This document shows, in pieces, positions 7,570 through 13,357 of a stretch of 64,000 bases of DNA. Under the pieces are notes generated by a model that was given only the letters and a program-made list of their open reading frames with translations, did not search any database and had not been told where the DNA came from. Position 1 is the stretch's first letter, and every line of letters begins with the position of its first letter. This DNA comes from Candidatus Eremiobacterota bacterium (GTDB lineage: Bacteria > Vulcanimicrobiota > Vulcanimicrobiia > Vulcanimicrobiales > Vulcanimicrobiaceae): NCBI GenBank assembly GCA_019240525.1, contig JAFAYE010000001.1, forward strand, positions 1,337,300 to 1,401,299, in the 5' to 3' direction. The translations under genes were made by a program, and so were the position numbers.

Positions 7570-8379
7570 ATGCGGGTGCTGCTCCTGGTCGCCCTTCTGA
7601 TCCAAGCCGCGACGGGTTTCGGATTGGCGCAGACCTATGCCCCTCGATCTCCGGTCCCCCGGACGACATCGCTCCCCGAGTTGCGCGCCATCGCCGCGCG
7701 GCGCGAGATCGAAGAACGCTTCACGATCGGGCTCGACCTTCAAGCCCGTGGCGACTGGGAAGCTGCGCGTGGCGAGTTCGAGCAGATCGTCGTGCTGCAT
7801 CCGTCCGAACCGCAAGGCTCGACGGCGCACTACGACCTCGCCATCGCCTATTCGAACCTGCATCGTAATGACGACGCCGCGCGCGAACTGCGCGCAGCTA
7901 TCGCGCTCGATCCGGATTTCCTCGCCGCGATGGCAAATCTCGTTTCAATCGATCTCGCGCGCGGTGACCTTCGCGAAGCGCGCAAGGTCGCCGATCGTTA
8001 CGTCGCGCTGGCGCCGGCCTCGGCGCGGGCCCTCTATTCGCGCGGGATCGTCGCATTACAAAGCGGCGACAACGCCGTAGCGCGCGCTGATTTCGGTAAG
8101 CTTCTCTCCGAAAACCCTTCGTACGCGGTCGCCCATTACGATCTCGCGCTCGCGGAGGAACGCTTGGGGCGTTACGATGCCGCCGAACGCGAACTGCAGA
8201 GCGCGCTCGTGCTGGCCCCGGCCTACGCTCGTGCCCGATTCGCCCTCGGCGTCGTTCTTCTTCGCGAGGGCGAGCATGCCAAGGCGCGCGATGAATTCGC
8301 GCGTGCGACCGTCGACGCAGCCGGAGACCCGGGCCTAGCGAACATCGCGGCCGCGATGCGTGATTCGATCAAGAATTAG
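7570..8379 (+). CDS. exported TPR-repeat protein
   Basis: The 269-residue product has an N-terminal signal peptide (MRVLLLVALLIQAATGFGLA, then QTYAP) followed by about five tetratricopeptide repeats from residue 50 on, with repeated pairs such as ALDPDFLAAMANLVSIDLARGD and LAPASARALYSRGIVALQSGD. TPR proteins scaffold protein-protein contacts; with a signal peptide this one probably works in the periplasm. It sits 3 bases after the small exported gene and about 80 bases before the cupredoxin operon, from which a candidate promoter separates it. Confidence 0.8.
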   Translation: MRVLLLVALLIQAATGFGLAQTYAPRSPVPRTTSLPELRAIAARREIEERFTIGLDLQARGDWEAARGEFEQIVVLHPSEPQGSTAHYDLAIAYSNLHRNDDAARELRAAIALDPDFLAAMANLVSIDLARGDLREARKVADRYVALAPASARALYSRGIVALQSGDNAVARADFGKLLSENPSYAVAHYDLALAEERLGRYDAAERELQSALVLAPAYARARFALGVVLLREGEHAKARDEFARATVDAAGDPGLANIAAAMRDSIKN

Positions 8380-8458: not shown

Positions 8459-9046
8459 ATGTCTCGAAAACTCATGGCAATCGCCGTAGCGGTCGCCGCA
8501 ACAGCACTCGCAGCGTGCGGCGCGCGGTACGGCAGTGGCACCAACAGCGCAACCTACACGCTTCCGGGAATGCCCGACCTCACGATGACCGCGAAATTTC
8601 CCAATGGTACGACCAACACGATCAGCGAAGAACTTCCCGGCGAGGGGCTGGGCTCCATCGCCGACCCGCACTGGAAAGCAACGCTCGGCGGTTTTACGCA
8701 ACAACAGTTTTCGCAAGCACTGGGGTTTCCGCCCGGCACCGAGCTGACGATTCAGAACATATCGAAGGTCAACGAACATACGCTCAACGTGATCGCGAAG
8801 ATCTCCGGGCCACCGGCCAAGTTCCCCAGTAATCCGACGCTCAAGACCTCGCCGAACGGCACCACGATCAAAGTGGGTTTCGCAAGCGGCGCGATTGCCC
8901 ACGGCAGCTCCGTCAAGGTTCTCGCGAAGAAGGCGGGAATCTATTTGATCGGCTGCGCTTTCCATTATCACGAAGGGATGCAAGACGTGCTCGTGATTGC
9001 CAAGGGTGCGACGCCCGGACCGCAAGCGACAGCTCCCGCACAATGA
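8459..9046 (+). CDS. cupredoxin-like lipoprotein 1
   Basis: A 195-residue predicted lipoprotein with lipobox LAAC (Cys20). The C-terminal half has a cupredoxin signature: ligand-like His107 (NEHTLNV) and the CAFHYHEGM loop giving Cys166, His169 and Met174, the ligand set of type 1 blue copper sites. A function as a periplasmic electron carrier or copper-binding protein follows from the family. GGAGG at 8450-8454 precedes ATG 8459. It is first in a run of genes with four-base overlaps and resembles the N-terminal domain of the next gene, so the two probably arose by duplication. The end ATPGPQATAPAQ is a low-complexity Pro/Ala tail like the linker of the next protein. Confidence 0.85.
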   Translation: MSRKLMAIAVAVAATALAACGARYGSGTNSATYTLPGMPDLTMTAKFPNGTTNTISEELPGEGLGSIADPHWKATLGGFTQQQFSQALGFPPGTELTIQNISKVNEHTLNVIAKISGPPAKFPSNPTLKTSPNGTTIKVGFASGAIAHGSSVKVLAKKAGIYLIGCAFHYHEGMQDVLVIAKGATPGPQATAPAQ

Positions 9047-10146
9047 ATCTTCGCGCACCCGCGATCGGAGTTTGGACGCTCGGCATCGCGCTTGCAGCCT
9101 GCACGAACGGCGGCGGTTTAACCAACATCGGCGGCGGGGGCACTTCGCCTTCGCCGCTGCCTACCAACGCGATCGGGGTGGCCATTCCCAACCAAAAGAT
9201 CGGTGTCGAGAACGATCCGGTATGGGGAACAATCGGCGGGTACACGGAGGAGGCGACCTCGCAAGTGCTGGCGTTTCCGCCCGGCGCACAGATAACGATC
9301 AAGAATCTCTCCTCGACGACTCCACACACGCTCAACGTGATCGGAAAGCGAAGCGGGCCGCCGCCGAACTTTCCACCGAGCCCGAGCCTATCGTTCTCCC
9401 CTAGTGGCAACGGCGTCTTGGGAACGAACTATGCGAGCGGCACGATTAATCCGGGTGCCTCAGTGACCGTTACGCTCTCGAACCCCGGCATCTATCTCAT
9501 CGGGTGCGCGTTTCACTATATTTCAAATGCGATGCGCGATGTGATCCAAGTCGTAGCGGGCGCGACGCCGGGACCGACGGCCTCGCCGGGACCCGGCGGG
9601 TACGCGGCGCGTCGCGCGCGACACGGCCTGCAGCCGACCGCGGAGCGTACCGCGCACGCATCCGCGCAGCCGTTACTCGTCGATCAAACGGGGCGGCACT
9701 TTACGCTTTCGTCGCTGCTCGGACGGCCGCTCATCGTTACGTTCGTCGCGGCACACTGCACCGATGCATGTCCGTTGATTAACGCGCAGTTTGCCGACGC
9801 CTCGCGGCGGATCGCCTCGGCCCATCTCTCCGGGCGCCTGCTGACGGTGACGCTCGATCCGGAACACGATTCTCCAGCCACAATGCGCGTACTCGCGCAA
9901 CGCTTCGAAGCCAACCCGCGCTACTGGTTGCTGGCGGCCGGCTCGATCCGCAACGTTCACGCGGTGATGCGCGAATTCGCGGTCGTTTCGGAGCAAGGGC
10001 GCCGCGGCTTTCACGACGAGCACACGACGTTCGTCTATGTCTTCAACAAAAGAGGGGAGCTCGTCCAGACGATGCTGGCATCCAGCGCACTGAGCGACTC
10101 CATCGTTGACGCGCTGCGCCAGCAGCGCGCGGTGGCGGCGCGATGA
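9043..10146 (+). CDS. cupredoxin-Sco1/thioredoxin-fold fusion lipoprotein
   Basis: One 367-residue reading frame joins two copper proteins. Residues 1-20 are a lipoprotein signal (LAAC, Cys20). Residues about 45-172 are a cupredoxin with His95, Cys155, His158 and Met164. A Pro/Gly/Ala-rich linker spans about 173-208. Residues about 209-360 are a Sco1/SenC-type thioredoxin fold with CTDACP (Cys239, Cys243) and a distal His327 in HDEHTTFVYVFNKRG, exactly the CxxxCP plus His copper site of Sco chaperones. Sco proteins deliver copper to CuA of cytochrome oxidase or reduce its cysteines. The gene overlaps both neighbours by four bases (ATGA), so all three cupredoxin genes are coupled. No frameshift or internal stop suggests an artefact. 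Confidence 0.88.
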   Translation: MNLRAPAIGVWTLGIALAACTNGGGLTNIGGGGTSPSPLPTNAIGVAIPNQKIGVENDPVWGTIGGYTEEATSQVLAFPPGAQITIKNLSSTTPHTLNVIGKRSGPPPNFPPSPSLSFSPSGNGVLGTNYASGTINPGASVTVTLSNPGIYLIGCAFHYISNAMRDVIQVVAGATPGPTASPGPGGYAARRARHGLQPTAERTAHASAQPLLVDQTGRHFTLSSLLGRPLIVTFVAAHCTDACPLINAQFADASRRIASAHLSGRLLTVTLDPEHDSPATMRVLAQRFEANPRYWLLAAGSIRNVHAVMREFAVVSEQGRRGFHDEHTTFVYVFNKRGELVQTMLASSALSDSIVDALRQQRAVAAR

Positions 10147-10598
10147 TTCGCCGTTATGCAACCCTCGCAGCCCTCGTGCTCGGTGCCTGCACCGCGGGCG
10201 GCATTCCAACATCGTCAGGGGGAAGCGGCGGCCTTACGATCGACGTCAGCCTCACGCAGTACGCGCCCGTCCAAACGCTCTACGGTCAGAGCGGCGGCTA
10301 CTCTCCACCGATAACCAACATCTCGGTCGGCACGCAGATTCATTTCGTCAACGTCGACAGCTTCGCGCACACGGCGACGGAGATTCCCGGAAACCCTACG
10401 AGTTTTCCGAGCGGTTCGCCGTTCAACGCCGGGGCGCTCCAGCAACACGGGACGACCTTGTCGGGCGGATTTACCAGCGGTGCGCTTCAGCCAAACTCTT
10501 CCTCTCAGTCGATTACCGCCGACCGGCCGGGCACCTATCTTTTCGGGTGCTTCTTCCACTACGGGGCGCCGATGCGCGCCGCGATCGTTGCGCAGTAA
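10143..10598 (+). CDS. cupredoxin-like lipoprotein 2
   Basis: A 151-residue lipoprotein (LGAC, Cys16) with a single cupredoxin domain: His76 in SFAHTATE and the CFFHYGAPM loop (Cys136, His139, Met144). The loop length matches that of the first cupredoxin but the rest is diverged, and the region between strands is Gly/Ser rich. A role in electron transfer or copper buffering at the outer face of the inner membrane or in the periplasm is inferred from the family. It overlaps the fusion gene by ATGA at 10143, and its own end overlaps the TTG start of the cytochrome gene. Confidence 0.85.
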   Translation: MIRRYATLAALVLGACTAGGIPTSSGGSGGLTIDVSLTQYAPVQTLYGQSGGYSPPITNISVGTQIHFVNVDSFAHTATEIPGNPTSFPSGSPFNAGALQQHGTTLSGGFTSGALQPNSSSQSITADRPGTYLFGCFFHYGAPMRAAIVAQ

Positions 10599-11718
10599 GC
10601 TTTTCGCCACCGCGTTTGCGGTGCTGGTGGTCGCCCTCGCGCCGGCGCCCGCGCGAGCGATACCGATCTTCGCACAGCGCTATCACTTTCGTTGCGGGCA
10701 GTGTCACAGCGTACTGCCGGAGCTCAACGCATTTGGAAATTACTTTCGCTCGCACGGCTATCGCTTACCGCTGCCCGAGCATGGCACGACCGTCTTTGCA
10801 ATCCGCTATCAGATGGAATACGATAAGCAGCCCGCGGCCGAGAGCCCGCGATTTTCACCGGGCGGTATCTTGTTGGGGAGCGGCAATATCGGACCGATCA
10901 CCGCGTTTCTACACTACAGCTTCGGCGCCGGTGGCGGACCCGCGGGAACGTATTTGCTCTTCGCCGCCGGTTATGACGAGCACACGCAGACCTTGATTCG
11001 CGGCGGTCTCATCGAGCTGCCGCTGGCACAATCGCCCGGTCAGCGCCTCGACGATCTGCAAGAGTACGGCTACTACGGCGCCCACGTTGGTTTGAACAAT
11101 CTTCCGCTCTCCTCACCGCGCTGGGGCGTGCAGGCCGAGCGAACTTTTGGAAACTTTCGCGCCGACTTCGTGATCGACGCGGGGTATTATCAAGGCTCGG
11201 CGTACGGCGGCAAGCCGGTTCCGACCGGCGAGTTTACATGGCTCAAACAACCTGAGATGAGCCTTTGGCTGCGCGACACGCTCGCCCAAAGCCGCAAAGG
11301 TGAACTCGATCTCGGGGCGACCGCGCTGGGCGGCACATTGGGAGTTCTTCCGACCGGCAGGCTTCCGTTTGCGGACCTCTACGAGCGCTACGGATTGCTG
11401 GCGCACGCACAGTACGGAGATCTCGATTTTCAAGCCGAACAGTGGTATGGTGACGACCACGACGCCGACGGGTTTTTGACCAATCAGCACTCTTCGGGCG
11501 GCTACGCGCGCCTGAAGTATTACCCGATTCCGCACGCCTATTTCGGACTGCGTTATGACGCCTATGCAAACCCGTTCATCAACCGCGACTTCGTTTACTA
11601 CGGAGCAGTGCAGATCGCGCCTTTCCGCATCCTCGCGCAAGAGGTGCAGCAGCCCGCACAGCATCCGTATTTTAGCGCCGCACTGACAGTAGCTTTTCCA
11701 GGCCCGTTGAAATACTAG
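10588..11718 (+). CDS. mono-haem cytochrome c / outer-membrane-barrel-like protein
   Basis: From TTG 10588 the 376-residue product has a signal peptide ending APARA, then one c-haem motif CGQCH (RYHFRCGQCHSVLPELNAFGNYF), then about 310 residues of alternating aromatic/polar strands (YGYYGAHVGLNN, ERTFGNFRADFVIDAGYY, YFGLRYDAYANPF) ending with FPGPLKY, like an outer-membrane barrel. Proteins with an N-terminal CxxCH followed by PxLNAFG and a barrel are known in several environmental phyla, with no settled function; electron transfer across the outer membrane is a reasonable inference. The start overlaps the preceding stop by 11 bases, and no ATG or GTG in this frame fits the signal peptide. 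The response regulator begins 6 bases after its end. Confidence 0.75.
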   Translation: MRSKLFATAFAVLVVALAPAPARAIPIFAQRYHFRCGQCHSVLPELNAFGNYFRSHGYRLPLPEHGTTVFAIRYQMEYDKQPAAESPRFSPGGILLGSGNIGPITAFLHYSFGAGGGPAGTYLLFAAGYDEHTQTLIRGGLIELPLAQSPGQRLDDLQEYGYYGAHVGLNNLPLSSPRWGVQAERTFGNFRADFVIDAGYYQGSAYGGKPVPTGEFTWLKQPEMSLWLRDTLAQSRKGELDLGATALGGTLGVLPTGRLPFADLYERYGLLAHAQYGDLDFQAEQWYGDDHDADGFLTNQHSSGGYARLKYYPIPHAYFGLRYDAYANPFINRDFVYYGAVQIAPFRILAQEVQQPAQHPYFSAALTVAFPGPLKY

Positions 11719-11724
11719 ACTCCC

Positions 11725-12393
11725 ATGCGGGTCTTGGTCGTCGAAGACAACGTTCCGGTCGCCGAATCCATACGAATGATGCTGGAGGCGCGCCGGTACG
11801 CCGCCAACGTCGTCACCGACGGAGAGGCTGGGCTCGACCATCTTCTGCGCCGCTGCTATGACGCAGCGGTGGTCGACGTCGGTCTACCGGGCATGGATGG
11901 ATTCGCGCTCGCTCGCACGGCGCGCGCGCAAGGCGTGCAAACGCCGATCCTGATGCTGACCGCGCGCGATGCGGTCGAAGACCGCGTTGCCGGCCTGGGC
12001 TGCGGTGCCGACGACTATCTCGTCAAGCCGTTCGTCGAAGAAGAGCTGATGGCGCGAATTGCCTCGATTCTGCGCCGCGCCGATCGGCCGGTGCTCGGAA
12101 CCATCGAAGCGGGAAAACTTCGCATCGATTTGGCCGCACGCAGCGTAACGTACGATCGCAGCTTGGTGGCTCTTGGCGCGACCGAGTTTCGCCTCTTGGA
12201 GTTTCTCGCGCGCAATGCCGGAATCGCGCTCTCGCGCACGCAGATCGTCGAGCGCATCTGGGACTACGACTTCGAAGGTTCCAGCAATATCGTTGACGTC
12301 TACGTGAGCCAGCTTCGCCGCAAGCTGAACTCGCTTGGCGCGCGCGGCGTCATCGAAACCGTCTGGGGGATCGGATACCGCTTCAAAGCGTAA
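11725..12393 (+). CDS. OmpR/PhoB-family response regulator
   Basis: The 222-residue protein has a receiver domain (acidic pair Glu7/Asp8, phospho-acceptor Asp51 in DVGLPGMDG, Lys101 in YLVKPF) and a C-terminal winged helix (LGATEFRLLEFLARNAG, IVDVYVSQLRRKLN, GIGYRFKA). It would be phosphorylated by the kinase encoded next and bind DNA as a dimer. It lies 6 bases after the cytochrome gene and 25 bases before the kinase, so a link to the copper/cytochrome genes is likely; members of this family (CusR/CopR type) often answer to copper. The signal cannot be read from the sequence. Confidence 0.95.
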   Translation: MRVLVVEDNVPVAESIRMMLEARRYAANVVTDGEAGLDHLLRRCYDAAVVDVGLPGMDGFALARTARAQGVQTPILMLTARDAVEDRVAGLGCGADDYLVKPFVEEELMARIASILRRADRPVLGTIEAGKLRIDLAARSVTYDRSLVALGATEFRLLEFLARNAGIALSRTQIVERIWDYDFEGSSNIVDVYVSQLRRKLNSLGARGVIETVWGIGYRFKA

Positions 12394-12418: not shown

Positions 12419-13357
12419 ATGATCCTGCGCACGGCGGCGCTCTACCTCGGCATTTTTATCTGCGTGCTTCTCGCGCTCGACGCCGCTGCGTACGCATTCA
12501 TCGCGCGCGAGTACGCGTCGTCCGTCGCGCCCGCGCTCGCTACGCCGGAAGTAGCCCGGGCGCTGGCCACGGCAATGCGTCGCGTTCTGATCACGCTCTC
12601 GGCCATCGACCTGCCGCTGATCGCGATCGTGGCGCTGGCGTCGTATGCACTCGCGCGGGTGACGATTGCGCCATTGCAAGCGGCGCGCGAGCGCGAGCGC
12701 ATCTTCGCCGCCGATGCCGCGCACGAGCTGCGGTCGCCGCTCGCGGCGATCGCCGCGATCGCTCAAGCCGCCAGGACGGGCGCCACACAGGAGGCGCGTA
12801 CAGCCTTCGACGCGATCGCAAGCAGCGCGCTGGAGGCCTCCGCCGTCGTCAGCGATTTGCTCACCTTGGCGCGCGATCCCGGGCGCCGCGCCCTTCAGTG
12901 CGAACCCGTCGACCTTGGCGCCGTCGTTGCGAGCACGTCACGCGAAACGGAGCCCGTTGCCCGGGCGCGCGGGATCCGCGTGCAGAGCGCTCCGGCCAGC
13001 GCGATCGTCGACGGTGACGAACGGCGCCTACGCGAACTCGCGCGAAATTTACTCGACAATGCCGTGCGCCACGCCCGCGGCAACGTTTCGATCGCTTCAC
13101 GTCGCAACGGCTCCCTCTGCGAAATCGTCGTCGAGGATGACGGCGACGGCGTGCCGCCACAAGAACGTCAGCGGGTATTTCAGCGTTTCTACCGGCGCGC
13201 GAACGACGGAACGGGCAGCGGCCTGGGCCTCGCGATCGTGCGCTGGATCGCAAACGCGCACGAGGGCGACGTCACCGTCGAAGCGGCATCGTGGGGCGGC
13301 GCACGGTTCATCGTCGCAATCCCGGCACACAAAGAGAATCTCCGCTCCGGCGCGTAA
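12419..13357 (+). CDS. membrane sensor histidine kinase
   Basis: The 312-residue kinase has two transmembrane segments (about residues 5-28 and 57-80) with only a short loop between, no HAMP of normal length, an H-box with His102 (DAAHELRSPLAAIAA), an N-box (ARNLLDNAVRHA), G1 (VEDDGDGVPP) and G2 (GTGSGLGLAIV). The roughly 28-residue external loop has no Cys, His or Met cluster, so direct metal sensing is not obvious and the signal may be membrane-borne or come from a partner. It is paired with the response regulator just upstream; the UbiD gene follows 11 bases later. Confidence 0.93.
   Translation: MILRTAALYLGIFICVLLALDAAAYAFIAREYASSVAPALATPEVARALATAMRRVLITLSAIDLPLIAIVALASYALARVTIAPLQAARERERIFAADAAHELRSPLAAIAAIAQAARTGATQEARTAFDAIASSALEASAVVSDLLTLARDPGRRALQCEPVDLGAVVASTSRETEPVARARGIRVQSAPASAIVDGDERRLRELARNLLDNAVRHARGNVSIASRRNGSLCEIVVEDDGDGVPPQERQRVFQRFYRRANDGTGSGLGLAIVRWIANAHEGDVTVEAASWGGARFIVAIPAHKENLRSGA

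Follow-up and report, generated by a model that had tools for sequence, protein, structure and literature searches.

A lipid-anchored cupredoxin–Sco fusion protein encoded beside a Cyc2-like cytochrome-porin in one genus of Candidatus Eremiobacterota

In one genus of Candidatus Eremiobacterota, a cupredoxin and a Sco domain are joined in a single lipid-anchored polypeptide, the gene for which lies in a conserved cluster together with two further cupredoxin genes and a gene for a Cyc2-like cytochrome-porin. We found this arrangement in a stretch of 64,000 nucleotides (hereafter the window), and the coordinates of the features are given in Table 1. Sco and cupredoxin domains are individually well known, and novelty is claimed here only for a variant of known parts, namely for their fusion, which is restricted to one genus within the phylum sampled. 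No description of a cupredoxin and a Sco protein in one chain was found in the freely accessible literature searched. As the leading interpretation we suggest, at somewhat less than an even chance, that the Sco domain serves the cupredoxins of its own operon, to which the fusion tethers it, and that it is less likely to act as a CuA-specific chaperone.

Table 1. Features of the cupredoxin–Sco locus, with positions counted from the first nucleotide of the window
Feature	Position	Strand	Characteristics and basis of assignment
TPR protein, opens the conserved cluster	7570..8379	+	Pfam TPR, conserved synteny
Cupredoxin 1, separate lipoprotein gene	8459..9046	+	48% identity to the fused cupredoxin domain
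Cupredoxin–Sco fusion lipoprotein, 367 aa	9043..10146	+	ORF, lipobox, orthologous fusions in 14 more congeneric genomes
Cupredoxin domain, residues ~41-172; H95, C155, H158, M164	9163..9558	+	Profile of relatives, ligand conservation
Pro/Gly/Ala linker, residues 173-208	9559..9666	+	Comparison with split sister genomes
Sco (SCO1/SenC) domain; C239-x3-C243, H327	9667..10143	+	PF02630, ScoI alignment, Foldseek
Cupredoxin 3, lipoprotein	10143..10598	+	PF00127 E 4.2e-4, 21.1 bits, just below the cut-off of 21.2; ligands conserved
Cyc2-like cytochrome-porin	10588..11718	+	Signal peptide; one haem-c motif (CGQCH), with PEL at +4; some 17 beta strands in a low-confidence model
OmpR-type response regulator	11725..12393	+	Pfam, conserved synteny
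Histidine kinase	12419..13357	+	Pfam, conserved synteny

The fusion gene starts with ATG, ends with a single terminal stop and is read in one open frame, and its lipobox (LAAC) places the predicted lipid anchor at C20. The original prediction had located four cupredoxin and three Sco ligands in this chain, and we found all of these residues at the numbers it gave. A Pro/Gly/Ala linker and one lipid anchor for both domains, which it had also proposed, are borne out by the reading frame, the lipobox and the sequence. The frame itself is intact, with the same uninterrupted fusion carried by 15 separately assembled genomes of congeneric species, and all seven metal ligands are kept in every one of them. 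Pairwise comparison of close pairs indicated dN values well below dS in both fusion domains, with a weaker contrast in the linker, and thus both halves are under purifying selection. Most of these genomes are metagenome assemblies, a circumstance in which an assembly or sequencing error might have joined two genes, but the junction is identical in 15 independent assemblies and the selection on both halves speaks against an error as well. Since 15 genomes share the fusion, we rejected this explanation, the probability of which we consider negligible.

The C-terminal half of the protein could be assigned directly. Residues 212-339 matched PF02630 with an E-value of 2.4e-17 (63.6 bits, cut-off 22.8), and the CxxxC motif and the distal His align with the copper ligands of B. 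japonicum ScoI. The Sco part of the AlphaFold model had pLDDT values mostly between 75 and 95, and when this model was compared with the PDB by Foldseek, the best 26 matches were all Sco proteins (best E 4e-11), with Sco1/ScoI at the top. The model and these matches thus indicate a thioredoxin-like Sco fold for this half. PF02630, the CxxxC motif with its distal His and the thioredoxin-like fold are common to the fusion, Bradyrhizobium ScoI (PDB 4wbj) and B. subtilis YpmQ (1xzo). In contrast, the usual Sco protein is a single domain with an anchor or signal of its own, whereas the Sco domain of the fusion sits behind a cupredoxin on the lipid anchor of the latter; moreover, it is linked to a Cyc2-like operon and not to an oxidase. 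The genome of the window encodes one other Sco-like protein (L070:5642-6694 (+), G000:C1 near 634064), in which a Cx5C motif (CPDRTLC) replaces CxxxC; its His is retained and its C-terminal tail is hydrophobic.

ResA and peroxiredoxins also matched the Sco model, with lower scores. These matches, the thioredoxin fold that Sco proteins have in general and the single-CxxCH cytochrome encoded in the operon would all suit a Sco domain that functions mainly as thiol-disulfide reductase, as ResA, TlpA and PrrC do, keeping the cupredoxin Cys or the porin CxxCH reduced for insertion of metal or haem. A pure reductase does not need the His that serves Sco as third copper ligand, but H327 is invariant in 15/15 fusions and also in the aligned split homologues. 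Because this residue never varies among the fusions, a function restricted to thiol reduction is less likely, and we regard it as decidedly improbable.

The N-terminal half required a different approach. Pfam and NCBIfam gave nothing useful here, the fused cupredoxin domain alone having no Pfam match, and AlphaFold gave a weak model for it (pLDDT about 30-60); when this model was inspected for a Greek-key beta sandwich, beta strands were predicted at this low confidence. Since Pfam misses the fused domain, we used a family profile built from 19 relatives (diverse paralogues and orthologues), which matched PDB entries of auracyanin, pseudoazurin and plastocyanin, the best E-value being 8.7e-5. 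PF00127 was matched by 12 of the 19 relatives (best E 1e-6), the domain encoded in the window not being among them, and the four type-1 ligands (His, Cys, His, Met) are invariant across all 19. The assignment as cupredoxin is based on the profile match, the PF00127 matches of the relatives and the invariant ligands. With cupredoxins of the auracyanin, pseudoazurin and plastocyanin type the fusion shares the profile match and the His...Cys-x2-His...Met ligands, and it differs from them in being a lipoprotein, in being joined to Sco and, in most fusions, in the position of the Met, which lies at +6 relative to the second His. Because Pfam is blind to this half, architecture databases would probably list the fusion proteins as Sco only.

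The original prediction had regarded the cupredoxin half as a copper store that passes its copper to Sco as chaperone. The two copper sites are physically close in such a protein, but by sequence the cupredoxin half has one type-1 site per domain and not the many copper-binding residues of a storage protein. Its four ligands match those known from electron-transfer cupredoxins, other regions rich in Cys, Met or His are absent, and type-1 copper is held tightly in a preformed site. Since this half bears no likeness to a multi-copper storage protein, we abandoned the term store, and passage of copper from the cupredoxin to Sco appears very improbable.

A whole-protein search of the order identified the full-length, stop-free fusion in 15 genomes, each of them from the genus to which the window belongs, and there were no fused copies beyond these among 149 genomes of the phylum. 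The other three of the 18 genomes of this genus comprise two with split genes (G018, G020) and an incomplete one in which the gene was not found. In these two congeners and in the other genera examined, cupredoxin and Sco are encoded by separate genes, which are often adjacent; in split genomes with cupredoxin 2 upstream, the inter-domain gap is 72-177 nt. In a tree calculated by a quick method from nine concatenated neighbour genes of 20 genomes, all sampled fused genomes formed a single clade (SH-aLRT 99.9), and G018 and G020 were its sister group. This tree supports the view that one fusion event in the ancestor of most of the genus would suffice. Independent origins were also considered, as trees of the fusion gene did not recover the fusions as one clade, but a single clade was not rejected there (AU p 0.28) and the larger neighbour-gene tree supports a single origin, so this possibility was dropped. 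Among the 84 records with Sco relatives in a narrow plasmid collection, none covered 80% of the query.

Comparison with the split sister genomes defined the point of fusion. The cupredoxin of G020 ends with GATPGPTASPGSGGY-stop and its counterpart in G018 with GKGGY, and the separate Sco protein of G020 starts at MRTSMVAAALLALLAAAPQPRLID. In the window, the chain continues across the junction (GATPGPTASPGPGGY-AARR...QPLLVD), and the ancestral stop position follows ...GPGGY at residue 187 of the fusion. Since the separate sister genes end with a stop exactly at this junction, the old stop is the fusion point and the linker is not a product of chance readthrough. Beyond residue 187 the linker takes the place of the former Sco signal peptide and is, as judged from its sequence, a degraded version of it: the best 12-residue Kyte-Doolittle mean of the linkers is at most 0.88, compared with 2.4-3.2 in split Sco N-termini. 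The linker in the window has no hydrophobic stretch and no in-frame ATG, GTG or TTG, and 12 of the 15 fusion linkers are free of internal in-frame start codons, which indicates that Sco is normally produced only as part of the fusion.

It might be argued that the fusion is neutral, a stop having been lost between adjacent genes with independent products and the fusion being tolerated because of the flexible linker. The sister genomes do have both halves as separate proteins, and linker length is variable (26-41 residues), the linker sequence changing more rapidly than the domains in most of the pairs compared. On the other hand, the fusion has been kept across the whole clade with no reversion detected, and with its signal peptide gone the Sco domain depends on the fusion, although such dependence can also follow a neutral start. 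Taken together, we consider a neutral fusion quite unlikely.

The cluster runs from the TPR gene through cupredoxin 1, cupredoxin 2-Sco, cupredoxin 3 and the Cyc2-like gene to the response regulator and the kinase, and this order recurs across most of the family, whether the genes are fused or split, and is rearranged in other lineages. The stop of cupredoxin 1, for which we chose the start codon at 8459, overlaps the start of the fusion (ATGA), and the start of cupredoxin 3 overlaps the fusion stop. It had previously been overlooked that both genes flanking the fusion encode cupredoxins with lipoboxes and that a Cyc2-like cytochrome-porin comes next. A scan of the cluster for sigma-70 promoters and terminators gave results no better than chance. 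Cupredoxin 3 is tandemly duplicated in G022 and G012 (L051 6612-7515; L054 5062-5965), and the genome of the window carries an extra cupredoxin-1 paralogue outside the operon (L071:5931-6506; G000:C1 about 1886068). In distant relatives (L060/L079 of G090, L076 of G096, L061 of G003), the cupredoxin 2-Sco pair is located apart from the cupredoxin 3-porin pair, on the opposite strand or on another contig, and this separation suggests that the two pairs are two modules.

Cyc2 proteins are recognized by a signal peptide, a single CxxCH, PxL at +4 and the upstream motif AxPxFAR[QK][TY] (PMC8406198), and a fused 16-strand porin and a length of at least 365 aa were considered in addition. When translation starts at the TTG at 10588, which is our reading, the Cyc2-like protein has 376 aa. 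It carries AIPIFAQRY...CGQCHSVLPEL and thus agrees with the published pattern in most positions, two upstream positions deviating from it (R to Q, Q/K to R). Its low-confidence model matched porins including OprP and OprO, the type of porin that Cyc2 is said to resemble (PMC8406198), and no Pfam or NCBIfam match was obtained for this protein. It is a candidate outer-membrane electron conduit in this phylum.

The Cyc2-like gene is present in 57 of the 103 genomes of the order, and the operon-type Sco is inherited together with it: 53 genomes have both, 4 the porin only, 5 Sco only and 41 neither. In 49 of the 53 genomes, the two genes share a contig and are at most 0.8-6.2 kb apart. Fisher's test for this co-occurrence gave a p-value of 1.6e-18, which ignores shared ancestry, and therefore contrasts within genera are the better guide; presence of Sco and porin covaries within genera g2, g6, g24, g32 and g35. 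Sco adjoins cupredoxin 3 without a preceding cupredoxin 2 at several loci (L006, L008, L009, L011-L013), so that its tie to the fusion partner is not exclusive, and three genomes (G029, G097, G080) have porin and cupredoxin without an operon-type Sco, which indicates that Sco is not indispensable.

Sco is classically an assembly factor for CuA, and an ordinary CuA chaperone would be the conventional reading of the fusion; the attached cupredoxin would then bring Sco to the oxidase, or feed electrons into it, and the fusion would couple CuA assembly to electron flow. In line with this, the genome of the window has two CuA oxidases and neither PCuAC nor Cox11, its one further Sco protein being the Cx5C variant, and in 8 of the 15 fused genomes, including that of the window, no strong canonical Sco was seen apart from the fusion. 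However, both oxidases of the window's genome are encoded elsewhere, neither of them linked to the fusion locus nor beside a Sco gene, and a number of congeners encode a canonical Sco in addition to the fusion. CuA subunit II (COX2, PF00116) is present in 101 of the 103 genomes of the order, whereas operon-type Sco is found in 58. That Sco tracks the porin while CuA is near-universal favours service to the copper proteins of the operon over a function as CuA-only chaperone. Coupling of electron flow to CuA assembly, which had been proposed originally, is thus possible but not favoured, as the oxidases are unlinked and Sco follows the porin operon; on balance we judge the CuA reading unlikely. 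One CuA subunit II of the window's genome (L068:8611-9705 (-)) has a C-terminal cytochrome c domain and is of the caa3 type, and the other (L069:6601-7260) is without this domain.

For the preferred reading, in which Sco serves the operon cupredoxins, the following sequence of events can be proposed. Lipo-cupredoxin 2 and Sco, an ancestral operon pair, were joined once through loss of a stop codon, and the signal peptide of the separate Sco then decayed to a Pro/Ala linker, so that export and anchoring of Sco now proceed via the lipid tail of the cupredoxin. In this position Sco may load the type-1 sites of the operon cupredoxins with copper, reduce their thiols, or do both; its putative clients are the fused cupredoxin and also cupredoxins 1 and 3, which the tether would allow it to reach. 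The cupredoxins, in turn, would shuttle electrons between the Cyc2-like cytochrome-porin of the outer membrane and the respiratory chain. That the fusion exists and arose once, where its junction lies, that all metal ligands are conserved, how the operon is built and that Sco is co-inherited with the Cyc2-like gene is shown by the comparisons above; copper transfer, the direction of electron flow and the membrane of residence are elements of this mechanism that we infer. The literature searched contained no known case in which a Sco protein loads a type-1 cupredoxin.

As to the membrane, the residue that follows the lipidated Cys is Thr in the fusion and Gly or Thr in its neighbours, and not Asp. 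According to the sorting rule of E. coli lipoproteins, it is this residue (Asp versus others) that bears on the membrane of residence, and by analogy with E. coli the rule suggests that the fusion may reside in the outer membrane. Were this the case, Sco would have been shifted off the inner membrane by the fusion, and this would be a further argument for its serving the cupredoxins.

The combination of an outer-membrane Cyc2 cytochrome-porin with cupredoxins is also known from the rus operon of Acidithiobacillus (cyc2-cyc1-cup-coxBACD-rus; PMC10654088). Compared with this operon, the cluster in the window has three cupredoxins, Sco and a two-component system, and it is without oxidase and without cyc1. 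A precedent is known from Sideroxydans lithotrophicus, where cupredoxins, SCO1/SenC and a cytochrome are encoded in one cluster that is induced on magnetite (Slit_1812-1818; PMC12016527). There, Sco is not reported as fused, two cupredoxins have multicopper-oxidase motifs and no Cyc2-like porin is listed (PMC12016527).

A Cyc2-like gene has been described in Candidatus Eremiobacterota from acid mine drainage (PMC8357290), its partners not being reported in the literature searched. The cluster described here may provide them, and it points to an operon in this phylum that is devoted to extracellular electron exchange, with Fe(II) oxidation as a possible function. It is conceivable, although we would sooner bet against it, that these uncultured bacteria harbour a Sco lineage dedicated to metallating the type-1 cupredoxins of a Cyc2-like extracellular conduit and not to CuA, the fusion being a built-in pair of chaperone and client. 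Many Sco proteins are without known client; here, a Sco is co-inherited with a cupredoxin, to which it is physically joined in one genus, and this names a testable candidate.
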